From: Owenia fusiformis
Taxonomy: Eukaryota > Annelida > Polychaeta > Sabellida > Oweniidae
Direction: 5' to 3'
Assembly: GCA_903813345.2 (NCBI GenBank)
Contig: CAIIXF020000006.1
Coordinates: 36,410,436-36,474,435 of the forward strand
Length of the DNA: 64,000 bases
Shown here: positions 7,021 to 61,110 of the stretch, piece by piece
Position numbering within the stretch: the first letter of the stretch is position 1
How the letters are laid out: each line of letters begins with the position of its first letter
Program-made: the position numbers and the translations under genes
The notes under the pieces: generated by a model
What the model was told of the DNA's origin: nothing
The model's input: only the letters and a program-made list of their open reading frames with translations
The model's database searches: none

Positions 7021-7023
7021 GTT

Positions 7024-7290
7024 TGAAACTGTCCCATATTAAGGATCAAAGAATATATTTATGTTTTATGTTAGAAACTGTCCCATATTAAAGATCAAAT
7101 AATATATTTATGTTTAATGTTAGAAACTGTCCCATATTAAGGATCGAAGAACATATTTATGTTTAATGTTAGAAACTGTCCGTTATTAAGGATCAAAGAA
7201 TATACTGTATTTATGTTTAATGTTAGAAACTGTCCCATATTAAGGATCAAAGAATATATTTATGTTTTATGTTAGAAACTGTCTCATTAA
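7024..7290. repeat. 49-bp repeat (TTAGAAACTGTC type) upstream of small gene copy 1
   Basis: Five units of about 49 bp share GAAACTGTCCCATATTAAGG, then ATCAAAGAATATATTTATGT. The same family lies ahead of the other small-gene copies (20540-20930 and 33665-34050) and in the tails of the zinc-finger genes (16210-16320, 18190-18300, 31660-31820, 32610-32770). It is part of the duplicated unit. Confidence 0.8.
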
Positions 7291-7405
7291 AGGATTAAAG
7301 CTTATGATTAATTTTAAGCTTCAGCTTGGAATCTTTAAACTGTGTGATATCAAAATCCACTTGAAGATCTGAAAGCAAATTGGCTTCCCTAAGCGAAAAG
7401 ACTGA

Positions 7406-18189: not shown

Positions 18190-20930
18190 TTGTTTAATAA
18201 CTGTCTCATATTTAAGATGAAAGAATATATTTATGTTTAATGTTAGAACTCGTCTGATATTGTATGATATTAAAGATCAAAGAATAATCTTTATGTTTGA
18301 ATTTTGTCGTTTAGGGTGCAAAAATGTTCGAAATTTTTTAAAACTAAATTTTTAAAATGCTTTTTTTCCCAGAGTCACTTTTGTGCATGGATGACTTCAT
18401 TTCTCTCTTATTTAGCAACCAATTTTCTTCATCTTTTTTGAAATAAATTTCATGTATCACATTTTGATAACATTGGGTAAGGCTACAATATATACCAAAT
18501 TTGGGCCTTTAAGTATAATGTATTATATGGAAATAACATTTTTTGTATAAACTGTATTGTATAATGATATCCTATAGTAGTGTTGAGTTAAGTGTAGTGT
18601 AGTGTAGTTATATATATTTTGTAATGAATAATACATTAGGTCATATCTAAATAGTCAATAAAAGATATATTTAGGATCAAAGAATATATTTAATATTATG
18701 TTGATGTTAATAACTTAGTCCACTACTAAAGATCAAAGAATATATTAAAGCTGTGCTAAACCAATTTCAGAATCTCTTGTTATATTGTATTTAGCATCAT
18801 GATAAACCATGACATCTCATATCTTCTCAGCCCTGAGATGCCATGATTAAATGAGCTTGATTTGGCGATCCGGGAGAGCCCAAAATTGAATTTTTTTGAG
18901 ATCTTTCATCCCAGCTCATATTTCATCTAATTGGGGTCATAAAGCTTGTGTTACTGTGCCTGTTGTAATATCTGCTGTTAAATACAATACCTATTATGTA
19001 ATGTATTGACATTAAGTTGATGATTACATGATAACAATCACACTTATTGACAGTTATAACTCTACCCATCTGATGTGCTCAGATCACAGAATATGCCTCA
19101 TAATATCAGGGCATGTTTCAGATGAAACAGAAAGATGCTATGAGTATCAGAATGTGTATTTAGCACAAATAACATCCCTTCTGTTCTTTTGACTACAAAG
19201 CTTGTGATATTTCCCCACACAACATGATTTATCAAGATAAGACTGTCAACCTCTAAAATGTTGCTATTTTTGCGCCCTTTTTTAGGTCACCTGACCATGA
19301 CGTACCATGTGCCAAGTTATTCTGGCGCTAAATCGAAAAGCTGTTGCTGCGAACTACTACGAAGGCTGGGCCAATATATATTATATACATTTAGTTTCAA
19401 ATTTGCAAGCATTCCAATAGCCAAATTAATATCTTGAATTGATTGAACTTCACAATAAGAAATTCTTGTGGAAAGAGCACTGCAATATCATTTATTACAT
19501 ATACAAGCAATTGATTGAAATGCATTTGTAAAACCTATTTATCGATACTGTACTCCGGGTAATGTTCGCGTGCGATTTAATTTCGCTTTGTTCGCGAATG
19601 TAGTAAAATAGCGAACATTTATCATCGCGAAATTTGTCTTAAATCCCCGGGCCTTTTGATATGTTTCGTTCGGTGTGAAACGTTTCTTCCAGTGTTGTTG
19701 GGCGAAGGCCTCAAAACATTTTGAATTGCCTTATTAGGCCAACAAAGGCAAGAACTGTTGACGACAATGATATCCTACAAATTGAAGTTAAAAAGCCATT
19801 CAAGAATATTCAAATAAATGCCTTAAACGTGGGAAATACAAACATTATTCGGATTCTGAACAGGCTAAAATAGCCCACATTGATTCACGGTAATAGGAAA
19901 AAAAATCAACTTGTACAATCTTCGAAACGTCATCAACTCAAATCCGCGAAATTAAATAGCAGCGAAATTGAAATTTTGAAAAATCGCGAAATTTTATAGC
20001 GTCGAAATTTACCCGGAGTACAGTAACTGAAAATGTTAACCCAATAGTTATATCTTGGCCTAACAGCATTACATTCGGGTTACAAAGTTTTAATCCCCAA
20101 ACAGTGGCAATGTTTGCTGTTATATAACTTACATGGTTTCAATAGCGTTTCAGCCCGATTGATTCCACACTCAATTGCAAGTGATATTATATCTTTGCAA
20201 AATTTATGAGAATTAATCATGCAAAAATTGACTCAACATAAGAGCGAATGACTCCTTTTTGAGGGCCAGGGTTTCATTTTTATTTACAAAATCATATTTC
20301 GCAGCAAATTGTTTCAACCACACACGTCATGTCAGGTGACTTAAAATTTCTGCTCTGAAAAATGAAATCAGTTTTGCCGCGAAAACAGACATGTGCTGAC
20401 TTTATATCCCCGATATCATAATAAAATGAACTTTTGGAACTGTTGATGGTTCACCATCGTGAAGTGTGGCCTTCATACTGTGAGATAAGCATAAATGTAT
20501 CTAAATTGAGTAAAATGGTTTGAGTACAACTTTAATGTTTAATGTTATAAACTGTCTCATATTAAAGATCAAATATTACATTAATGTTTAATGTTATAAA
20601 CTGTCTCATATTAAAGATCAAAGAATATATTTATGCTTTATGTTAGAAGCTGTATCATATTAAAAACAAAGAAAATATTTATGTTTGATGTGAGGAACTG
20701 CATCATATTAAAAAAATCAAAGATCATATTTATGTTTAACATTAGAAACTGCATCAATGATCAAAGAATATATTAATGTTTGATATTAAAGAATATTTAT
20801 GTTTAATTCTAGAAACTGTCGTATGTTAAGGATCAAAAGATTCATTGACGTTAATATTAGAAACTGTCCCAAGTTCAGGATTATATTAGTTAAGATCATA
20901 TTTTTGTTTAATGTTAGAAACTGTCTCATT
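18190..20930. other. Repeat-rich spacer before small gene copy 2
   Basis: It holds 49-bp-family repeats at both ends, part of the dispersed 600-bp repeat (18300-18490), a GTGTA microsatellite near 18595, a MITE (19546-20025) and a segment shared with unit C (20130-20450 against 33350-33665). No gene is supported. Confidence 0.5.
19546..20025. mobile_element. MITE with TACTGTACTCCGGGTAA termini
   Basis: TACTGTACTCCGGGTAA at the left is mirrored by TTACCCGGAGTACAGTA at the right, 480 bp apart. CpG-containing subterminal blocks (TTCGCG, CGCGAAAT) are also inverted. A second, more diverged copy is at 43766-44091. Confidence 0.75.
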
Positions 20931-32601: not shown

Positions 32602-34170
32602 TATTTAAGAAGAAAGAATATGTTCATGTTTAATATTAGAAACTGTCTGATATTAATGATCAATAAATGAATGTATGTTTAATGTTAATAACTGTCCCAT
32701 ATTAAAGATGAAAGAATATACTTATGTTTCACGTTAGAAACTGTCTGATATGAAAGATCAATTAATGTTTGAATTTTGTCGCTAAGGGTTCAAAAATGTT
32801 TGAAATTTTTTTTAAATCAAATTTTTAAAATACATTTTCCTCTGAGTCACTTTCATGCATGGTTGACATCATTTCTCTTTTATTTAGCAACCAATTTTTT
32901 TCATCGTTTTTTGAAAGAAATTTCATGTATCACATTTTGATAACATTGGGTAAGGCTTCAATATATACCAAATTATTTGCATTTCCAAATGCTCCCTGAA
33001 CCAGTTCATAAGTCTCTTGCAAAGTCTCGCCATTTTGAACCATGCACTGTATCAGATTTCTATGCTTCCATTTCATCAATTTGGTTGGTGTGGAAACATC
33101 TGCCATTTTGAAAATTTTGGAAAAAAAATTCAAAATTTCCTCACTTTTCCATCAATTTTTCATGGTACCCACCACTCTGGTTACCATAGCAACCATATCT
33201 CAAGAACCAATCAAAATTGAGCTCCCAAATTTTAACATATAATGTATAAATGTATAACACATATGTGTACCAAGTTTTATTGTAAAAGTCCTATTTAACT
33301 TGAAGTTATGGCATCAACTGCAAAACTTTTTGAACCACCTAAGTAGCTTACATGCTTTCAATAGCGTTTCAGCCCGATTGATTCCACATTCAATTGCAAG
33401 TGATATTATATCTTTGCAAAATTTATGAGAATTAATCATGCAAAAATTGACTCAACATAAGAGCGAATGACTCCCTTTTGAGAGCCAGGGTTTCATTTTT
33501 ATAAACAAAATCATATTTCGCGGCAAATTGTTTCAACCACACACGTCATGTCAGGTGACGTAAAATTTCTGCTCTGAAAATGAAATTAGTTTTGCCGCGA
33601 AAACAGACATGTGCTGACTTTATATCCCCGATATCATAATAAAATGAACTTTTGGAACTGTTGATGGTCTCATATTAAAGATCAAATATTACATAAATTT
33701 TTATATTATAAACTGTCTCATATTAAAGATCAAAGAATATATTTATGCTAAATGTTAGACGCTGTATCATATTAAAAACAAAGAAAATATTTATGTTTGA
33801 TGTGAGGAAGTGCATCATATTACAAAAATCAAATATCATATTTATGTTTAATGTTAGAAACTGCATCAAAGATCAAAGAATACAGGGCCCTGTATACTAA
33901 TGTTTGATATTAAAGAATATTTATGTTTAATTCTAGAAACTGTCCTATGTTAAGGATCAAAAGATACATTGACGTTAATATTAGAAACTGTCCCATGTTC
34001 AGGATTATATTAGTTAAGATTATATTTTTGTTTAATGTTAGAAACTGTCTCATTAAAGGATTAAAGCTTATGATTAATTTAAAGCTTAAGTGTGAAGTCT
34101 TTAAACTGTGTGATATCAAAATCCACTTGAAGATCTGAAGACAAATTGGCTTCCCTAAGTGAAAGACTGA

Positions 34171-45619: not shown

Positions 45620-46025
45620 ATGAATGCGATTGAACCAATTATCTAAGATACAGTTTTAAAGTACAAGGTGAAATTATCTGGAACAAAATTCCTAATACTA
45701 TTAAACTTAACAATAATATTCATAATCTAAAAAGTCTTTTTAAAGATGACACATTTTCAAAATACTGATTTTGATGTTCAGCAAACGTAAGGTGATTCCA
45801 TCCTCTTTATTGTACATTATTTTTTACCAATGTCTTTAATTCATGAGACAAATTATGGTTCACCCAGTGTCATGTTGTGTTAAACTTTCAAGCATTTGAA
45901 AATTTTAGATTAATTATTTTAAATGTGGTCAATTATATACCTATGTAGGTGTCACGACCACAAATATGTAAAAATGTTATTATGTTTTAATGAAATAAAT
46001 AAATAAAAATAAATAAATAAAAAAA
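45620..46025 (+). mobile_element. LINE 3' end remnant
   Basis: About 45660-45767 reads IIWNKIPNTIKLNNNIHNLK then SLFKDDTFSKY-stop, the usual C-terminal end of many LINE ORF2 proteins. A 3' untranslated stretch ends in an (AAAT)n tail at 45998-46024. Confidence 0.55.
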
Positions 46026-46911
46026 TTGTGCAAGAAATGAAATTCTTCTGACAAAGTTTGACCCCCTCCAAATAAAGACAGAAAAAGTTTATGTTGATAT
46101 TTTACACTAAAACTGATAGTAAAATGATTATAGCAAATGTCTACATTTATTATTAACAGTGAAATATATCCAGTATCATGAAATAACAATCAAAACACAA
46201 CTGTGCGATAATTAAGACCACCACATATGCGAGTCTAAAGGGTCTTGAAGTGTTGGCGTTAGAAGATTGAGAAATGTCAAACATGATTTAAATTTTAGAA
46301 GAAAGGTTGATCTTTTGTTTCATACCCTGCTCAAAGTAAGTTGAAGTTATCCTTTTTGAAACTGTCAGTAGATTTCCAGTGTACTTGTGTGATGATAGGA
46401 CCATTCCCCCTACTGTTGTTAGCTTTATCTCCAATACATATGTGTATAAGCATCTGTTGATAAAAGCACAAAATAGCCAAGCGTAAAGATAATGTCCAGT
46501 TTCGTCTATTTCCAGTGATCATGATGTATATTTCGGAGATCATACGTCTATTCATAGAATGTAACACTACTTCAGATGACGTCACACCAGAGATTACCAA
46601 GAAACACCATGACTTCTTGAAATCCCGTAGAAACAATAACCATAATTTGTTTAGGCTACGTGATCATTTGCTTTCATTGGCTGTTCGTTGTGATGTGTCA
46701 TACAGATGAATATCATCAGACATTGCCAGAATCTTGCCGGAAACTACCTATTAAAACTGAACATTATCTTTACTTTGGTTTTGTGTCCGGTGTACTCATT
46801 ATTTCATTGAGCCTACTATCAATGGGGACTGGACCTGGCTATGGGTCTGTGGAGCAAGATCACAGACTCCTTTCCTTCAATCTTCAAATGTTAATCTTTG
46901 TTTGCAGAATA

Positions 46912-49900
46912 ATGCCTCGACTTACGATTACCCCTGCTGGTAAAACTGCTATCATCGGTCTGTCATTGGCAGTGTTTGCAGTGGGACTACTAGCTGCCTA
47001 TTTGAGACGACGTAAAAATAAATGGCCAAGGAAGAAAGAACTGACAGATGTGAAAAGCAATGGCCAAGTTAGACCAACACCAAATATAGATCTAAGGGAT
47101 GGTAAGTTAGTAACAGTTTTGGCCATAAATAATTAGTCATAGATTTGCTTGAATGATATAAATGCCTCGTTTTCATACCCCTTAACAGTCAGTCCTCTAG
47201 AGGCAATACATAACATTAGTTATTTTGGAAAGATTTAATTTAATCCAAGATATGTATACCTCGGAAAATATGTGTATCTCTTAAGTAACACATATTTGCC
47301 AATGGATAAACCCAGTATGTGCCAAACCCTGAAGAAAGTGATACAGAAAAAGCCATGACAATCCTTCGCCAATATGTATATTTCAGCATAGTATTTTCTT
47401 AGAACCTCAGTAAGTGTCACTGTGGGATACACAAGAGTTGTTTAATAAGGGGGAGATATCAGGAGACACAGAGGGAGATATATGTCAGTATCTCCCACTC
47501 ACCTCAGATATCAATTATATTCCTGCATGTTATTTACCTATAACACTACTAAGTATAGGATACATACAAAATTTGTACTGGCATATTTTCAGGCACAAGT
47601 ACGATTCTTCATCACTGGAGTAGAAGTTCAACTCCACGTCTCCATACAACATCGTTATCTCGCTCTCAGTCTGGCTCGGTAATCTCGGCACTGGCGGCCA
47701 GTGATCAATCCTCGGATGCCACTCTCATGAATGAGGAATGTGACGTTAATGTTATCAGCCCATACCAGCTTGTCAATTTAGGTAAGTTTTACACTTTATT
47801 ACACATCTCAACTTTGGAAGCAAAAAGTCTGTAATAGAGCATTTTACACTATTCTCGTGAATTTCATCAGCAAATACCAGCTTATCTGACAAGTTTAAGC
47901 CTCAAACGCTACAAAGCAGCATGACATTTGATTCTCATTACCATGCCATTTAGGCCCGGGCATTTAGGCTAATTGAAATACGGAAAATTTATTCCATATT
48001 TTGTTATGTTACCACCAAAAAGTGGTGACATATTGCTATGTATGGTCTCCGTTTTTTCTTACGGTGGTTGGTGGTTGGCGATGGGCGTCTGTAACAAATT
48101 CTTACAACTTACAACTTCCAATAACTTAACTTTCACGTTTTCAGAAGTTCAAATCTGACTTTATTTGAAGATTTGACCTTCAATGATTTTTTCAAGGTCA
48201 AAAAAATGTCAAAAAGGTCTTTTTCAACTTGCTCACATCTGAATATAGATTTGAGTCAATGACATTCTCAAGGTTAAAAAGGTATTATTTCATCTTGCTT
48301 CAAATTGACCAATTTTTTTCAAAATCATCTCAAAGTTCTCAAAAGTTCAAATCTAACTTTAGATTTTAGATTTTAGAAATTAAAGATGTAGTGCAAATGT
48401 CTAATTTTCACATAAACTCTCTTCTAGTGATCAATTTATGTTGTATGGTGAACCTAGAAAACTTTGTTGAACCAAAAAAGCAGTTTTAGCCCAAAAATAT
48501 TTGCCATTTTGATGCAGTGGAAAACATGTGTTAGTATAAGTAATTGCATCTTATTAAATTGTCTTGGACCATGCTGACTGTACTGGTCTATGTTTCACCA
48601 TGCTGTTTATATTCACTCTTTTTTATCACACCATCGGTAGGATATAGTCGTCTTTATGATCGTTGTTGTGATCATTATCATGACCGCGTTTATATTTACT
48701 CTTACTGTTTTTGTTATGTAGGAATGGATTCACTTATAACTACAATGGACTACTGGAGTGAAGCTCTTGAAATGATGTCAGCTGGTAACCATGGCAACCA
48801 CTTAGATCCACTTTTCCCAAATGTAAGTAGCTGTAGTAACCAGATTGGTTTACCTGTTTGAAGCATTAGCTGTCAATCTCTGATGGGAGAGTACATACTA
48901 TACTTCCTTGTGTGAAATTTGGATCAATTAAATCTGGATTTATTCTGACTTGTTTGATCCATTTTTGTCTGGTTTTCTCATCAGTTAGGAATAAATACAG
49001 ATTTTTATTATCTCCGGCTTTATTATGCTCTGGCTGCACATCACTACCTTTACGTTTATCATAGGGTCCCGATATGACATCAGGGCATGTTCACTGGAAA
49101 ACTTTCTTTCCGGGTCGGTACATCCTTGGCCCAAGAGTAATTCATTGCATTACATTATGATCTGCTATGAAAGCAGTGAAGGACCGATCTTGAAGGATGG
49201 GGTCCGTAGGGGGCAGGGATTTATTCCCAGATCTAATATTGAAATCACAAGGATTCCAACAGTATAAAGCCTCAATGAATACTGGATTATTAGTTTCACC
49301 ATAAGTGGTGTAATATTGTTATTGTCTCCAACATTTTTGTGAACAGTGTTTGGCATTTGGTGTTCAGCTTTCAGTGTCTGCAACAAATGCTGTTTGGTGG
49401 TTGAGGTCTGTAACAAATGGTGTTTGGTGTTAGACATTTGTAACAAATGGCAGGTGGTGGCATTTTACATGTTAATGCCTTGTTGACTTATCTGTGTTAG
49501 CATTCTTATTTCAGGCTACATTACATGTCCCTGATGATATGGTTGAACATTTAGAAGACTTACTTGCTAAGGCACAAGGCATCAAAGAAGATTATGAAAG
49601 GCAAATGTTACATAGGGTGAGTCACATTAAAGATTATGAAAGGCAGATGTTACATAGGGTGAGTCACATTAAAGATTATGAAAGGCAAATGTTACATAGG
49701 GTGAGCCATATTAAAGATTATGAAAGGCAGATGTTACATAGGGTGAGTCACATTAAAGATTATGAAAGGCAAATGTTACATAGGGTGAGTCACTTCAAAG
49801 ATTATGATAGGCAAATGTTACATAGGGTGAGTCACATTAAAGATTATGAAAGGCAAATGTTACATAGGGTGAGTCACATTAAAGATTGTGAAAGGCAAAT

Positions 49901-52900
49901 GTAACATAAGGTGAGTCACTTCAAAGATTATGATAGGCAAATGTTACATAGGGTAAGTCACATTAAAGATTATGAAAGGCAAATGTTACATAGGGTGAGT
50001 CACTTCAAAGATTATGAAAGGCAGATGTTACATAGGGTGAGTCACATTATAGATGGCATTAGAAAAAGGAATGTAAGTGTAAGTCAAAGCCAAAATAAAT
50101 CCTCATGATATTCAAATATTCAATGAATTTTCAACATATTTAACATACGTTTTTCTGAAGAAACTTTGATAAACAAAATTAATAGCTATCCTATGAAACA
50201 CAATATGAAACTAGAGATGGTTAAGAAATATTTCAATGGTATAATTGTAAAAAAAAATGAAATTAATGTATGGAAAATGAATTTTTAAAAACAAATGGAA
50301 CATGAAAAGGCTATAAGCAATTGAAATGATAAACTTAGTTGTACTGTAATATCTATAAATGAAATAAACTATATTTGAAAAGGAAAAAAGAAAAATTTAA
50401 ATTGCTCCATAGCCCTATAGTCTACTAGGCAATGCGATAAATGCTATAAGAGATATGGACCACTCCTCTATACAGAGTGCTAGGATATGTAACATAACAT
50501 GTAGCAATAGATGGTTAAATTTTTTTTTTAATTCTCCTCCTAGGTGAGCTCCATAGCCCTAGGTAATGCAATGAATGCCATAAGAGATATGGACCACTCC
50601 TCTATACAGAGTGCTAGGATATGTAACATAACATGTAACTATAAATGGTTAAGAAATATTTAAATTCTCCTAGGTGAGCTCCATAGCCCTAGGCAATGCA
50701 ATGAATGCCATAAGAGATATGGACCACTCCTCTATACAGAGTGCTAGGATATGTAACATAACATGTAACTATAAATGGTTAAGAAATATTTAAATTCTCC
50801 TAGGTGAGCTCCATAGCCCTAGGCAATGCAATGAATGCCATAAGAGATATGGACCACTCCTCTATACAGAGTGCTAGGATATGTAACATAACATGTAACT
50901 ATAAATGGTTAAGAAATATTTAAATGCTCCTAGGTGAGCTCCATAGCCCTAGGCAATGCAATGAATGCCATAAGAGATATGGACCACTCCTCTATACAGA
51001 GTGCTAGGATATGTAACATAACATGTAACTATAAATGGTTAAGAAATATTTAAATGCTCCTAGGTGAGCTCCATAGCCCTAGGCAATGCAATGAATGCCA
51101 TAAGAGATATGGACCACTCCTCTATACAGAATGCTAGGATATGTAACATAACATGTAACTATAAATGGTTAAGAAATATTTAAATGCTCCTAGGTGAGCT
51201 CCATAGCCCTAGGCAATGCAATGAATGCCATAAGAGATATGGACCACTCCTCTATACAGAGTGCTAGGATATGTAACATAACATGTAACTATAAATGGTT
51301 AAGAAATATTTAAATTCTCCTAGGTGAGCTCCATAGCCCTAGGCAATGCAATGAATGCCATAAGAGATATGGACCACTCCTCTATACAGAGTGCTAGGAT
51401 ATGTAACATAACATGTAACTATAAATGGTTAAGAAATATTTAAATTCTCCTAGGTGAGTTCCATAGCCCTAGGCAATGCAATGAATGCCATAAGAGATAT
51501 GGACCACTCCTCTATACAGAGTGCTAGGATATGTAACATAACATGTAACTATAAATGGTTAAGAAATATTTAAATTCTCCTAGGTGAGTTCCATAGCCCT
51601 AGGCAATGCAATGAATGCCATAAGAGATATGGACCACTCCTCTATACAGAGTGCTAGGATATGTAACATAACATGTAACTATAAATGGTTAAGAAATATT
51701 TAAATTCTCCTAGGTGAGCTCCATAGCCCTAGGCAATGCAATGAATGCCATAAGAGATATGGACCACTCCTCTATACAGAGTGCTAGGATATGTAACATA
51801 ACATGTAACTATAAATGGTTAAGAAATATTTAAATTCTCCTAGGTGAGCTCCATAGCCCTAGGCAATGCAATGAATGCCATAAGAGATATGGACCACTCC
51901 TCTATACAGAGTGCTAGGATATGTAACATAACATGTAACTATAAATGGTTAAGAAATATTTAAATTCTCCTAGGTGAGCTCCATAGCCCTAGGCAATGCA
52001 ATGAATGCCATAAGAGATATGGACCACTCCTCTATACAGAGTGCTAGGATATGTAACATAACATGTAACTATAAATGGTTAAGAAATATTTAAATTCTCC
52101 TAGGTGAGCTCCATAGCCCTAGGCAATGCAATGAATGCCATAAGAGATATGGACCACTCCTCTATACAGAGTGCTAGGATATGTAACATAACATGTAACT
52201 ATAAATGGTTAAGAAATATTTAAATTCTCCTAGGTGAGTTCCATAGCCCTAGGCAATGCAATGAATGCCATAAGAGATATGGACCACTCCTCTATACAGA
52301 GTGCTAGGATATGTAACATAACATGTAACTATAAATGGTTAAGAAATGTTTAAATTCTCCTAGGTGAGTTCCATAGCCCTAGGCAATGCAATGAATGCCA
52401 TAAGAGATATGGACCACTCCTCTATACAGAGTGCTAGGATATGTAACATAACATGTAACTATAAATGGTTAAGAAATATTTAAATTCTCCTAGGTGAGCT
52501 CCATAGCCCTAGGAAATGCAATGAATGCCATAAGAGATATGGACCACTCCTCTATACAGAGTGCTAGGATATGTAACATAACATGTAACTATAAATGGTT
52601 AAGAAATATTTAAATTCTCCTAGGTGAGCTCCATAGCCCTAGGCAATGCAATGAATGCCATAAGAGATATGGACCACTCCTCTATACAGAGTGCTAGGAT
52701 ATGTAACATAAGATGTAACTATAAATGGTTAAGAAATATTTAAATTCTCCTAGGTGAGTTCCATAGCCCTAGGCAATGCAATGAATGCCATAAGAGATAT
52801 GGACCACTCCTCTATACAGAGTGCTAGGATATGTAACATAACATGTAACTATAAATGGTTAAGAAATATTTAAATTCTCCTAGGTGAGTTCCATAGCCCT

Positions 52901-55900
52901 AGGCAATGCAATGAATGCCATAAGAGATATGGACCACTCCTCTATACAGAGTGCTAGGATATGTAACATAACATGTAACTATAAATGGTTAAGAAATATT
53001 TAAAAACTCCTAGGTGAGTTCCATAGCCCTAGGCAATGCAATGAATGCCATAAGAGATATGGACCAATCCTCTATACAGAGTGCTAGGATATGTAACATA
53101 ACATGTAACTATAAATGGTTAAGAAATATTTAAATTCTCCTAGGTGAGCTCCATAGCCCTAGGCAATGCAATGAATGCCATAAGAGATATGGACCACTCC
53201 TCTATACAGAGTGCTAGGATATGTAACATAACATGTAACTATAAATGGTTAAGAAATATTTAAATTCTCCTAGGTGAGTTCCATAGCCCTAGGCAATGCA
53301 ATGAATGCCATAAGAGATATGGACCACTCCTCTATACAGAGTGCTATGATATGTAACATAACATGTAACTATAAATGGTTAAGAAATATTTAAATTCTCC
53401 TAGGGGAGTTCCATAGCCCTAGGCAATGCAATGAATGCCATAAGAGATATGGACCACTCCTCTATACAGAGTGCTAGGATATGTAACGTAACATGTAACT
53501 ATAAATGGTTAAGAAATATTTAAATTCTCCTAGGTGAGTTCCATAGCCCTAGGCAATGCAATGAATGCCATAAGAGATATGGACCACTCCTCTATACAGA
53601 GTGCTAGGATATGTAACATAACATGTAACTATAAATGGTTAAGAAATATTTAAATTCTCCTAGGTGAGTTCCATAGCCCTAGGCAATGCAATGAATGCCA
53701 TAAGAGATATGGACCACTCCTCTATACAGAGTGCTAGGATATGTAACATAACATGTAACTATAAATGGTTAAGAAATATTTAAATTCTCCTAGGTGAGTT
53801 CCATAGCCCTAGGCAATGCAATGAATGCCATAAGAGATATGGACCACTCCTCTATACAGAGTGCTAGGATATGCAGACGAATGGTTATGTCAGATGATGA
53901 AAATAGTGAAGTCGACTCATTTGTCTCCGCAACTGATGAGGTAAGATAATGTTGAAGATAGAAATATAAATCTTTTTTATTTTTTTAATTAAGGTGGCCC
54001 ATAATGAGAAGAAATATTAATCTCATTGTAAACTCGTAAAGAAGCAATTTATTTTTTGCATTTTCTTCTATGTTTTGTATAGCTCTCTACTATGAATGTA
54101 TACATTTAGGTTGCCGACTGACTCTTTCAAATCAACATTGCATATATGGCATCACAGCCATGCATTACATGCCCAGTCTCCTGGACCCATTAAGAGTTTT
54201 TCCTGTCTTCCCAGGTTGTCAATCACACTATTCATGATGTCACATGGTCTTTCCCATGTGCCATCCCCCGAAGGAGAAATAATTAGGTAATCTGAAAACA
54301 TAAGATCAAATCCTATGCTAAGGGCTGATGTGAAAAAGACACTCCACCCTGGTGGGAATCAAACCCACAACCTCCCGATTAAATGTCAGGTGCTCTAGCA
54401 CTTGAGCTATGGAGCCGACTGACTCTTTCACAAATGTGAACACCACCTGGAAGTGACCCCCTTGGCAAAGGCTGGCTCACGCCTATAGGACTTTAATGTG
54501 TGTTTGGTTCATTGCTTTAAATAGTTCTAACCTAATAATTTTTGCATTCAGGTCGCTGATATAAGTGATATAGCAGAACAGAAGACGCAGTATCAGCACC
54601 TTGTTCTTTACAAAGCTGCCCTCTTAGAGGTTGAATATGGCAGTGTCCTTTGCCGTACACTCAGGCATGTAAATCATTATCCTTTAACCCCATATGCTTT
54701 TCATAGAAAACCCAGTACCAGCACCTTGTTCTTTACAAGCTGCCCTACTGGAGGTTGAATACGGCAGTGTCCTTTGCCGTACACTTAGGCATGTAAATCA
54801 TTATCCTTTTACCCCATATACTTTTCATAGCTGTAATCCACAAACAAGTTGTCTTTGTAATGTCTCTACATGATAGTATTGTGTTCATTTACAAAGAAAA
54901 AATTAAAGATGTAGACCATTAAAAACTAATTGTCGTTGTAAAACACATTAATTGCAGACATTTTGAATTTGCGTATATATTCCTGTGAATATGAAATCAT
55001 GAATTAAGGATTCTGCAAATTTTTTACTGACACAAATTTAGATACTCACAAAAATTGCAAAAATGAGAATCCAAGTAAAACAAATGCACAAATACGCAAA
55101 CATTGCTCCCATGAATTTTACAGTAATTCTCATGTATGTATTTTATTTTAGAACTAAGATGCTGGCCTGTGATTCTGATACAGAATTCCTTGCAAAGTTA
55201 CACTGTGTTAGATTGGCATTTGAGGTAAACATTCAACTCTGACCTTCTAAATACAGGGTGGGCCAAAAAAACGACACTTTTTTCAAGATACTACAACGTT
55301 TTTATTTTCCAACCTACATACCCCAAATTTTGCTGTTAAATAGTGCCAGGGGTTCTAAGTAATAATATAGTGTAACAAGTCCTTCAACTTGGATTATTTT
55401 TGATCTAAAAGAGGAGTTCAATTGGTCCGCCACACTATTTGATGAAATATTTTAGTTTTAGACGCCTTGCTGACATAGCAGTATCAATGAAATGTTAGCT
55501 AATTTTTTTTCAACTTGTCTTGATTGCCAGCTTTAGTTGGGTGCCTTCATACAATGTCCTGGAGACCTTCCCATACCCTATACTCACTGGGGTTTGCATC
55601 AGGGCTATTAGCTTGGCGATCATCAGGCCGTATCAGTTCAGGAACATTTTGCAAATTATGCTTATATCTCATGGCACACCACATGTTTAAGTGAGACGCT
55701 GATGACTTATTTTATTGAAGTAAAAGTGTATAATTCATGATCCATGGCTAGATAACAACCTCAAGTTTCATTTGGTATGCAAATTATGATTTTGTATCAA
55801 AATTTAAAAAAAAGTTATAGCATTTTGAAAAAAAGGGGTGTTTTTTTGGCCCACCCTGTATAAACATCAAGCTGTATATTTAAATTTTATTTTCACACTT

Positions 55901-58900
55901 TACATGATTCGAATGATGTCAATTTCAGAACATTATTTCAACTACACATAATATAACTCTTTGGTGTACTACAAACAATGAATTCTGAAACATACATACA
56001 TACTTTTAATGTGAACTTTTTTAATTAAGCAAAATATGGCAAAACCTTGTATCCAAATATCTACAGCCCACCCATTTCATGTGACAGCCTATAACCCTAT
56101 ATGTTACATTGCAGCAATTGTTCAAGGATGAGACCATCAGACAATGGTTTGCAAATACTGGGAAAACAATGATTGCTGATCTACTAAGAAAGGCAGAAAG
56201 GGTAAGCCATAGAAAATCTAGGATCGGAATTCTGAGGATCCGAATTGAAACCTGAAATTGTACAATGTGCAGTTCAACTTGATGGGCATCAAGCAGAATA
56301 TAGATTGAATTTCTAGTACTTCCTGTGTATTTGAGACAAATATCTTTGAAAAGTTATTAACTGTCAGAAAGGGAAAGATCTTTTTATGGTCCAATATAAA
56401 GCCCCAAGATGAATGGAATTTACACCCTGATTTAGCCTCTTAATTAAACGCCCTGTGCAAAGTTTGAAAATATAATCATGCAAATATTACTTTTTATGAC
56501 TTGAAAATCCATTTAAGACAATTTTTGAAAAATATGACTTTTGAAAAATAATTTTCAAATTTTTGAATTTTCCACCGTTTAAGAAATTTTTAGACCAAAT
56601 ACAACATTTAACACTTTATTCAAGGATCCTGAAGAGTTCAACGCAGCATTTGATGAAATGATCGACTACATTAAAGAGGAAGAAAACTGGGTTGACATCA
56701 AAACAGAACTGAAAGGAAGAGGGGTAAGTGTGGTCTTTGATTGGGCTAGAGTATTTCTTAATACAATGTCCTTGCATTTACATGTAAGGATTGCAATTTG
56801 TTTTAACACTGGTGATGTTTCGCCTTTTAAATAGATCTCACACCCTAAAAGGGTATCAGTCATATCAATCATAGAAAACTTTCCAGATTTTACCATTCCA
56901 TGCACCTATTCATATTTTCGATTGCTGGCCATGAGACTGAAGACTTTTGTGCTAAAAAATTCAAGGAATTCCAATACCGTTCCCTCTCTGGTAATACATT
57001 CTTCACATTTTGCAGGTCCTAACCTACACATTCTATGACATAGTATTAGACTTTATCCTTCTGGATGCTTTTGATGATCTGGAAAACCCACCCAGCTCTG
57101 TAACGACAGTCGTACAAAATAGATGGCTCTCTAATGGCTTCAAAGAGACTGTGAGTATATGTATCTGAATACATGCTAAGGCACCACAGAACCATTCTTG
57201 CTAGACTGAGAACAGGTAGCCTCCTACTTCACATTGAGACAGGTCGTTGGTCAAACGCAGCACTAAATGATCATACATGTAAATTATGTGATGGTAACTT
57301 TGTTGAAGATGAAATTCATTTTGCTGTCCAATGTAAACATTATTCCAACTTGAGAACACATTTTTATAGAACTGTAACTGATATTTTAACACCACATATG
57401 AGAACAAACACTGACAATGAGTTACTTTTATTTATAAGCCTAATGCATTCAAGATCAATTCAGAGACAGTGGGCTGCTCTGTTATACAAAATGTTCATGA
57501 AAAGGCAATTTGACCTGGAACGGTTGACTGCAGTCTAATAATTTGCCATATTATTCCTATGTACAGTATTCATTGCAATGAGGGCCAAACCTCCATACCA
57601 CCTTGTAGTCAATAATCTAGTCATCATCTTATAAGATAACATGTAAATCATTTATCATCATTTATAAATTGAATTATTGATATTTATCAATTTATGCATT
57701 ATTGTACTTGTAGATGAATTGTAGTTTTATTGTTGAATGTCATGTCTATATAAACACTGTTATTATTGATCTTTAAAGTCCAGTGTCTCATAAGCCGACA
57801 TCGGCTGGTGGTTTTTTTTAGAATATGTATGTATTTGTACCAAATGTAAACCACTGCCAGTGACACTATAATAAACTATTTTAATAAATAATTTAATAAA
57901 TAAATAAAAGTATTTTCATTTTGTACTTCTTTGTTGACGGTGTTCGGTGGTTTTGTGTTTGGCATTCAAATTTAAGAGTTCCTCTTCCTTAACAAATGTG
58001 ACAAATGGCAGGTGGTAGCAATTTGCATGTTAATACCTTGTAATGATACCTTGCCTTGTGTCATTCATTTAATTTCAAATTTTTAGTTGTAATTTTGTTG
58101 CACTTCTATGAGACTACAACCCATGTGTTAATGAGTTGGACAATACAAAAAGACATAAGGCTGGTGTGTTTTATATTTACAGGCTCTAGCAACTGCAGTA
58201 TGGTCAGTTCTAAAGGCAAAGAGAAGAATGTTGAAGGTAGGTAACTTCACACTTACGCCATTTGGCCTCATCTCACAGTTCACCCCCCTGTGTGAATACT
58301 TTGTGGTAGACAGTGGATGCATAGTACACAGCATGGATACACTTAATATCTGATTTGTGCTATAATGTACTCTTATCCATTTTAAATGTTTGTGAAGTTT
58401 AAAATAATAAAATTAAATTCATATCTGCATTCAAATGAACATTTCATTTTTTGAGGAATGGAAAATTAAAACGTTGGATATTTTGAATTTTATTTGTTGT
58501 TCCTCAAGTGAAATAGCCTAAATGTCTACATTTTCAGATTCGAGATGGTTTCATTGCCCACTTTTACTCAATATCTGAGCATGTGAGTCCAGTGTTAGCC
58601 TGGGGCTTTCTGGGACCAAATCCAGCTATGAACCAACTCTGCACATATTTCAAGGTACATTTTTACAAATGTGTTTTATAGTACTGCACCAATAGCAGTT
58701 TTTGGGGGGATTTTAATGTTGTTAATTTGTTTGAAATTGTGAACTTTGCCCAAGATTTTCAGTTTTGCACAGTTTTATAGCATTTTGATAAAACTACTGA
58801 TTTCACATAAAAAATCATAAAAACTTCATTCAATAAAACAATACATCTGTATCAGTTATGATGGATTTAAGCTGTTTGTTTTGATATATATATGAGCATG

Positions 58901-59329
58901 ATAAAACCATATTCTATGGCCACTGTATGTATTGTATGGTGGCCATACTTGATAAATACTGTAATACTCCATTTGTTTAACTATAAGACTTGACATTGTA
59001 GATATTTCATATTTTTAAGTTTAACAGTAAAAGACTTGGTCCAGATGGAATGTTTGCCAAATTATCCATTCTTCCTGACAAACTTAAAAATAATATTTTT
59101 AACAGAAATGATAAGGTATTTACTTTAGTTCAAAACGGCTTCATTTCAAGCAAACGTTTATTATTTGAAATAAGTTATCTATGTATATTTTCAGGACCAG
59201 ATTCTGGGCTTCGCTCAAGATATATTCAATTTCGACAAAGTTCGCTATGCAAGTATTGAACAATTAGCTGATGATATCCTCAATATTGCACGACACAGAC
59301 ACTCATTGGCTAGTCAGCATTTATTATGA
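46912..59329 (+). CDS. MIGA: Mitoguardin (MIGA/FAM73), 13 coding exons
   Basis: Outer-mitochondrial-membrane protein of the mitoguardin family, known to promote mitochondrial fusion and to tether mitochondria to ER or lipid droplets. Exons: 46912-47101, 47593-47781, 48722-48822, 49515-49616, 53794-53940, 54552-54664, 55152-55224, 56115-56201, 56625-56723, 57016-57150, 58183-58236, 58538-58654 and 59195-59329. They total 1542 nt (513 residues) and all phases match. Residues 12-31 form one membrane helix followed by RRRKNKWPRKK, a signal-anchor layout. Residues 236-242 (SFVSATD), after an acidic stretch, match a phospho-FFAT motif for VAP binding. The C-terminal domain is strongly conserved (FYDIVLDFILLDAFDDLENP, NRWLSNGFKET, DQILGFAQDIFNFDKVRY). 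Human paralogs are somewhat longer. Intron 6 has a GC donor (CAG|GCATGT); intron 4 carries two satellites built on its own splice sites. An acceptor at 46907 implies an upstream 5' exon. Confidence 0.9.
49590..50075 (+). repeat. 42-bp satellite that multiplies the exon-4 end and splice donor
   Basis: The real exon 4 ends ATGTTACATAGG with donor GTGAGT at 49617. The unit ATTATGAAAGGCAAATGTTA + CATAGGGTGAGTCACATTAAAG then repeats. Donor-like sites recur every 42 bp at 49659, 49701, 49743, 49785, 49827, 49869, 49911, 49953 (GTAAGT), 49995 and 50037. Units are 14 codons, and the frame (VSHIKDYERQMLHR) stays open until TAA at 49902. Confidence 0.95.
50402..53880 (+). repeat. 130-bp satellite that multiplies the exon-5 start and splice acceptor
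   Basis: Twenty-six acceptor-bearing copies start TAGGTGAG at 50541 and every 130 bp to 53791, preceded by one diverged copy at 50402. Each unit holds the acceptor (CTCCTAG), the first ~75 bp of exon 5 and about 55 bp of intron-like sequence beginning at GTAACATAACATG. The last copy runs into the true exon 5 (53794-53940). Copies are almost identical; a T/C variant (GTGAGTT or GTGAGCT) comes in blocks, as expected from unequal crossing-over or conversion. Confidence 0.95.
54113..54430 (-). mobile_element. tRNA-Lys-derived SINE with 17-bp target duplication
   Basis: GCCGACTGACTCTTTCA occurs at 54113-54129 and 54414-54430. On -, the insert starts with a tRNA-like head: A box ATAGCTCAAGTGC, anticodon stem CCTGA/TCGGG around loop CATTTAA (UUU, Lys), and B box GGGTTTGATTCCC. 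It lies in MIGA intron 5. Confidence 0.8.
54697..54830 (+). pseudogene. Decayed tandem duplicate of MIGA exon 6
   Basis: About 100 bp closely matches exon 6 (CAGCACCTTGTTCTTTACAA, GGCAGTGTCCTTTGCCGTAC) and the following intron start with its GC donor. One A is missing (ACAAGCTGCC against ACAAAGCTGCC), so inclusion would shift the frame. Confidence 0.85.
55254..55858 (-). mobile_element. Tc1/mariner-type element with transposase remnant, MIGA intron 7
   Basis: CAGGGTGGGCCAAAAAAACG at the left mirrors TTTTTTTGGCCCACCCTG at the right, with TA on both sides (605 bp). On - at about 55685-55535 a broken reading shows RPDDRQANSPDANPSEYRVW, resembling the SPDLNPIEY-W motif at the last catalytic residue of Tc1/mariner transposases. 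It is internally deleted and dead. Confidence 0.8.
57160..57907 (+). mobile_element. LINE 3' end in MIGA intron 10
   Basis: The ORF at 57173-57538 reads LARLRTGSLLLHIETGRWSN, CKLCDGNFVEDEIHFAVQC and further, the zinc-binding C-terminus of LINE ORF2 proteins (Cys-x2-Cys...His...Cys). A 3' untranslated region follows and ends in an AATAAATAAATAAA tail near 57875-57907. 5' truncated. Confidence 0.8.
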
Positions 59330-61110
59330 CACACAATGTAGTTAGACACATAATGGCCAGTAAATGGGGGATCTGTTGGAGTTGAAGGAATTTATTATGG
59401 TTCGTTTATGGGGTCCTAATGTACTTTATGGCTTGAGTATGGGGTCCTTAAATACCTCCTATGACAGACATGATTACTCATGAATATCACAACACCATTG
59501 TCATGTAAAATTATCCTATAAAATAGGTAATAACCATATAAAATTGGTAATTTTAATGTTGAAATTCACAGGTAGTCAAATTTACTATGAAAGCAAAATT
59601 GTTATAGTATTATTGTCCATATATGAGCTTTCAAGAGAATATGGTGTCATTGTAAGTCCATATAAGGAGTTACGAGCCACATACAATAATTTCTGGGTTA
59701 CCTCGATGGATTCCCCATATTTGGTGTAAAATTAGGCAAATATTTGTAATTTTATAATTTAATTTACACTTATTCTACTTAATGTACAGAAAGTAGAACA
59801 ATTTTAGTGGAACTTGTACAGAAGGAGATACATTGTATTTTATGAAAAATTCAAACTTGGTGCAATTTAAAGCTGTTTAAGTTGTATTTGTTGCAAAGCT
59901 AACATAATCAAAAATGGATACAGAACAATTTTTTGACAGATAAAAGAACAAAAACCTGAGATACAATATAAGTCACAATAATGAGAAGTTTTAGCAAACA
60001 TGGCAGTATTTGAATTTATATCAATGATTTGTTATTACTAAATCTAGTATGATAAAACGTGTATATGTCAACACCTCTCTAATCCAAACACCTCTCAATG
60101 TGAACACTTTTTCTCTTTCACAATTTTGTTATCACCCATTAGATATTAAGATACCTTGAAATGTGAATACCTGCTAATCTGAACACTTTTGGCTGACTGG
60201 TGTTCAGATTAGACAAGTTTTACTGTCTATGAACAAAATTGTATCAAAATTGCACAATAATTGCTCCTCTAAATTATGGAAAATATTTATTGTACATTTT
60301 CTAGTATATTTCATTCTTTATTAACCTCTTGAATCCCAGGTTCTAAAATTGCTTTGAAACCAGGGAATTTATCATTTTTGCAAGCTTTTTACATTACATA
60401 CATAAACAACAGGTGATGCTCAATTTAGTGAAATTAGTCGGTAGAAATCATTTCTACACATTTTAAAACATTTTTTGGTGTAAATTGGATGAAAATTGTC
60501 CAAATTAGAGTGATTTTAGTTTAAAATTTGGGGTTGATTTTCTTGTCACTCTGGGTAGTCAAAGGGTTAATATGGACAAGAAAGCATGGTATTTTAACAA
60601 AACTTTTCTAGATATGACTGAGCAGTAACAGTGAAATTTCACATCAAGATCAGGGCTCTCACAAGAAAATTTTTAGAACCTGGAAGAAAAAACTTGCTGC
60701 CATTTACGCAACTTCTTGAAATATTCTGTGATTATATAAAAATTGCTGATTTTCAGACATTATTTTAGAAAAATAAGAATTTGTATGGTAAGTCACACTT
60801 CATCTTAGGTTTTGAGGGTTTGTGGCTTAAAAAATGAAAGAGGAAAAATCCAAAATCAAAAAATTAGAACCTTGTGCAAATCATGGGACAGGCTAGAGAA
60901 TGGTGCAGCCAGGTTTGAACATGAGAGAGAATGGTGCTGCGCCAAGTTTTAAAAGCCTAGCGCCAGGTAGCCTGATCCAGATTGCAACGAATGGAGTCAT
61001 AAATATATAATTGCTTCATCTGAAACCCATTTGCTTCTTAACACAGCAGAATGGGGTTCGTGTATATAGTTGTTTTTAGTACATATTGACTATTGAGATC
61101 ATGTACAATA
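59330..61110. other. Intergenic region 3' of MIGA
   Basis: AT-rich without supported ORFs. It contains the right terminus of a pogo-like repeat (about 60065-60230) and the decayed CAGGGCTCTC MITE copy (60651-60974). No clear AATAAA close to the MIGA stop was found. Confidence 0.5.

Follow-up and report, generated by a model that had tools for sequence, protein, structure and literature searches.

The window, a stretch of 64,000 nucleotides, contains a mitoguardin gene (MIGA): joining exons 4 to 7 gives a protein that fits the Pfam family Miga (PF10265) with E = 1.3e-24. We placed the exon junctions by sequence and reading frame. This gene hosts two tandem arrays, one at each end of intron 4, and a third, shorter duplication at exon 6. 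The features are as follows, a slash marking the splice junction in sequence motifs:

49515-49616, plus strand: MIGA exon 4 (102 bp, phase 0), the last ~30 bp of which seed the 42-bp unit
49588-50054, plus strand: array of 42 bp x 11 found by TRF, carrying the exon-4 end and the 5' splice site AGG/GTGAGT
50055-50424, plus strand: non-repetitive middle of intron 4, 370 bp between the arrays
50425-50543, plus strand: leftmost 130-bp unit, divergent (89% identical, acceptor lost)
50544-53793, plus strand: 25 full 130-bp units, each with ~80 bp of exon-5 start and ~50 bp of intron end
53794-53940, plus strand: MIGA exon 5 (147 bp, phase 0), donor GAG/GTAAGA
54552-54664, plus strand: MIGA exon 6, ending CAG/GCATGT
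54580-54830, plus strand: duplication of 124 bp x 2 found by TRF, covering the exon-6 end and the donor side

Intron 4 extends over 49617-53793 (4177 bp) and about 91% of it is tandem array, with 438 bp in the 42-bp array, 3369 bp in the 130-bp array and 370 bp of unique sequence. Without the arrays only ~430 bp remain, and we put the ancestral length of the intron at about this value. The original prediction had described both ends of one MIGA intron as arrays carrying its splice sites, and TRF, Pfam and the sequences of the units confirm this. The two units are also unrelated, as had been stated, and resemble each other only at the consensus TAG(G)GTGAGT. We considered intron gain by duplication on the basis of a likeness between the start of the intron and the start of exon 5 (GTGAGTCACATTA versus GTGAGYTCCATAG) and rejected it, the similarity being too short.

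On the donor side, TRF reports 42 bp x 11.1 with a 92% match at 49588-50054, in agreement with the 11 copies counted previously. Each unit joins about 30 bp of the exon-4 end to about 12 bp of the intron start, and all 11 units scored have a well-scoring donor (AGG/GTRAGY in 10, AAG/GTGAGT in unit 8). The period is a multiple of 3 and the junction lies in phase 0, so each later donor would add 14 amino acids. The reading frame runs open across seven units until a TAA closes it in unit 8; by translation, this ladder stays open with 0-6 extra 14-amino-acid units.

On the acceptor side, TRF reports 130 bp x 26.5 with a 98% match at 50425-53873. The intron-derived part of the unit ends in TTCTCCTAG or a close variant, and TCCTAG/G stands at the exon-5 start in every full unit, giving 26 acceptors together with the real one. 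The previous description of this array as 130 bp x 26 acceptor copies holds for the number of copies, 25 of them full units, and fails for the leftmost unit (50425-50543), which has no acceptor. Reading through from an upstream acceptor leads to a stop after 39 codons in the three units checked, and the remaining units have the same 39-codon open frames. Exon 5 itself is the sole copy that runs on to a donor (GAG/GTAAGA). Some variants recur in adjacent units (123T>G in a run of three, 6C>T in blocks), the pattern expected of local block duplication.

The AG/G sites of the 130-bp array have a second property. Exon 5 starts with GTGAG, so in nearly every unit the acceptor is followed at once by a strong donor: 25 of the 26 sites, the real exon-5 acceptor included, read AG/GTGAGY and one unit has GGGAGT. 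Juxtaposed acceptors and donors are described as ratchet points of recursive splicing (PMC8605326), and the 130-bp array has this feature, an acceptor directly abutting a donor (AG/GT). The internal AG/GTGAGY sites could act as donors. It is conceivable that the intron would be removed in recursive steps of 130 nt while the donor array would yield a ladder of 14-amino-acid insertions, a reading prompted by the motifs themselves that we regard as unlikely.

The same sequences could also be read as the outcome of selection for many splice sites, with the donor array supplying a series of proteins extended by 0-6 units of 14 amino acids. The 42-bp period keeps the frame, donors score well in all units and the ladder is open over 0-6 units, as this explanation would have it. 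However, unit 8 of the 42-bp array contains a stop, a stop is likewise met when reading on from any upstream acceptor, and the density of substitutions does not differ significantly between exon- and intron-derived positions. By our own count, substitutions affect 5 of 30 exon-derived versus 5 of 12 intron-derived positions of the 42-bp unit (p = 0.12), and 7 of 80 versus 5 of 50 in the 130-bp unit (p = 1). With equal densities in its two parts, the 130-bp array gives no sign of constraint on its exon-derived part, which speaks against the selection that the original prediction had suggested. We consider selection for multiplicity highly unlikely.

We searched the whole genome (498 Mb in 525 contigs, C1-C12 being chromosome-sized) at the DNA level with each of the two units, the resulting counts being lower bounds, and found both at the MIGA locus only. 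The searches thus give no support to common satellites that are spread over the genome and came to lie here by chance, the observation that had been named as refuting the prediction. No second haplotype copy of either array was found in these searches of one assembly. The result supports two unrelated, locally born arrays, each containing one of the two junctions of intron 4.

Long arrays of near-identical units are prone to errors in copy number, and the number of copies, or the arrays as a whole, might have been mis-assembled. Against such an artefact stand the distinct and ordered variants among the units, the single-locus nature of both units, and the occurrence of the same architecture in unrelated genes as well as in an amphioxus case that has been published and resequenced. 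We consider an assembly error highly unlikely.

MIGA contains a third duplication across a junction, absent from the original prediction. It consists of two copies of 124 bp at 54580-54830 spanning the end of exon 6 and the beginning of the intron that follows, the second copy having a 1-bp deletion. The exon-6 donor CAG/GCATGT, as deduced from the frame, would probably define a GC-AG intron. Three junction duplications within one gene are unusual, and the short intron explains them only partly.

Further repeats occur in the window. An array of 30 bp x 40 at 937-2135 is open in frame as a 10-amino-acid repeat over ~400 codons and is not known as a gene. Related arrays of ~49 bp lie among C2H2 zinc-finger repeat regions at 7021-7300, 20535-20788, 32626-32767 and 33710-33868. 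An Rfam search of 46000-60000 returned a single match, tRNA-like (RF00005, 33.5 bits), at 54352-54409 on the minus strand, probably a tRNA-derived SINE.

Similar junction-centred arrays, which had been proposed as a genome-wide check, were found in other genes. We searched for eight Pfam families and obtained 699 matches, corresponding to ~678 distinct exons once array copies were removed. Acceptor-side arrays of partial exons are present at two of the ~678, in a kinesin and an ISWI-type SNF2 gene, and a LATS-type kinase has an array on the donor side; the names ISWI and LATS are our own reading of the translations.

C2:23266359-23269174, minus strand: kinesin exon start and acceptor (CCATAG/ATTCAC), 159 bp x 17.9
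C2:4915297-4916006, minus strand: ISWI-type SNF2 exon start and acceptor, 137 bp x 4.8
C11:19329697-19330146, minus strand: LATS-type kinase exon with an intron array of 23 bp x 35 seeded by the donor GTAAGTAATG

In the kinesin array each partial copy has an in-frame stop and the last copy alone continues. In the ISWI-type gene, as in the kinesin and MIGA acceptor arrays, the partial copies precede the complete exon.

Two other candidates were rejected as arrays. The kinase exon pair at C10:2256896/2257074 consists of diverged copies, each with an intron-like flank and a donor; these two exons (C10:2256896-2257205, plus strand, 178 bp apart) are likely to be mutually exclusive. At C9:37986009-37994334 (minus strand) myosin exons stand in tandem, at least 12 of them, each matching about positions 18-84 of the profile and spaced some 330-1800 bp apart; this is probably a large cluster of mutually exclusive exons rather than a satellite.

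How surprising is the occupation of both junctions of one intron? If a 42-bp and a 130-bp unit are placed at random on an intron of 4.2 kb, they straddle opposite junctions in 0.06% of cases, a figure that is inapplicable here because the intron is long on account of the arrays themselves. On the ancestral intron of ~430 bp the fraction is ~4%, so the arrangement is less improbable by chance than had been stated.

A mutational process might nevertheless favour splice junctions here, for example through transcription-coupled structures, so that arrays are born there more often. The occurrence of junction-spanning arrays in four genes, namely MIGA with its three duplications, the kinesin, the ISWI-type and the LATS-type gene, is in line with such a process. 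To estimate the background, we took 60 loci from the P450 and kinase models, counting as an array any repeat with a period of at least 15 and at least 2.5 copies. At distances of over 150 bp from the exon hits, 5.2% of the bases lie in arrays, a background that takes in dispersed families and some coding repeats. Junctions were predicted with a simple and rough score; an array covers 1 of the 64 predicted at these loci and none of the 34 at 20 further exon loci, where the sequence reaches only 190 bp beyond the hits. Pooled, 1 of 98 junctions lies under an array (the probability of one or fewer at a background of 5.2% is 0.033). Because the background includes dispersed repeat families, the sample is compatible with locally born arrays being modestly enriched. 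The one covered junction in 98 against 5.2% of flanking bases argues against the targeting mechanism put forward in the original prediction, as does the presence of partial-exon arrays at just 2 of ~678 distinct exon hits. We regard a process favouring junctions as very unlikely, and neither junction targeting nor selection for splice-site multiplicity is supported.

Taken together, we consider it likely that two independent, locally born minisatellites spanning the junctions of a short intron arose and expanded neutrally and are tolerated by splicing. The architecture, the single-locus units, the reading frames and the recurrence in other genes are direct observations. For the birth of the arrays and their normal splicing we infer the following course. 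A short tandem duplication of 42 bp would have arisen across the exon-4 donor and a second one, of 130 bp, across the exon-5 acceptor, and each would then have expanded by slippage or unequal exchange. The arrays would be tolerated because a productive donor and a productive acceptor remain available to splicing. The acceptor copies further upstream would amount to truncated exons running into a stop, and since the true exon-5 donor is reached from the last copy alone, exon definition should favour that copy. The extra donors would add just multiples of 42 nt.

Minisatellites of this kind are known in amphioxus as 'mirages', repeats spanning intron-exon boundaries in Adh3 (Canestro et al. 2002) and in the globins BflGb6 and BflGb9 (Ebner et al. 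2010) (PMC3087553). Their units measure 150-160 bp on the acceptor side, 157 bp on the donor side and 10-72 bp in Adh3; many carry AG/GT signals, and either boundary can be affected (PMC3087553). Splicing is reported to stay regular in amphioxus although mirages, 10-160 bp in unit length, occur at both 5' and 3' boundaries (PMC3087553; PMC3902484). Both MIGA units likewise span an exon-intron boundary, are local to the gene rather than a dispersed satellite, and carry splice signals (11 donors, 26 TCCTAG/G acceptors); the MIGA arrays thus have the mirage features that sequence can test. Unlike the amphioxus cases, the MIGA arrays affect the two ends of a single intron, reach at least 25 copies and belong to a host that is probably a protostome. 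The genome gives a match to the microRNA bantam (53.2 bits, E = 9.3e-8, under the family threshold of 61), which is not known outside protostomes and so suggests this placement; a search with the COX1 model (PF00115) returned nothing.

Other systems are less close. In lancelet PGBD5, repeats of 60 bp and 108 bp overlap splice sites and differ in copy number between assemblies (PMC3902484); in contrast to MIGA, they are at different exons, imperfect and present in 2-7 copies. In human segmental duplications, internal tandem repeats situated where exons and introns meet change splicing and can give rise to new introns (PMC2812944); unlike in MIGA, these belong to recent paralogs and half of them lie within coding exons. 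A minisatellite supplying multiple splice donor sites is described for IFI6 (6-16) by Turri et al. 1995, as cited in PMC2572611. Like MIGA, IFI6 has a minisatellite with multiple donors; unlike MIGA, it is human and affected on the donor side only. The units of the IFI6 donor minisatellite are reportedly short. Junction-spanning minisatellites are therefore already known as a kind, and what is new is the case of both ends and the host, probably a protostome.

These results extend splice-junction minisatellites, for which the only descriptions that we found concern amphioxus genes and a small number of human cases, to a probable protostome in which at least four genes are affected in a small sample. 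With about 11 donors and about 26 acceptors, an intron such as that of MIGA would allow a direct test of the way in which the spliceosome selects one of several near-identical sites. If the recursive and ladder reading were true, it would be a natural splicing-choice experiment inside one intron. Such introns would also allow a test of how arrays seed new introns, a role in intron gain that Ebner et al. suggested for the mirages of amphioxus globins (PMC3087553).
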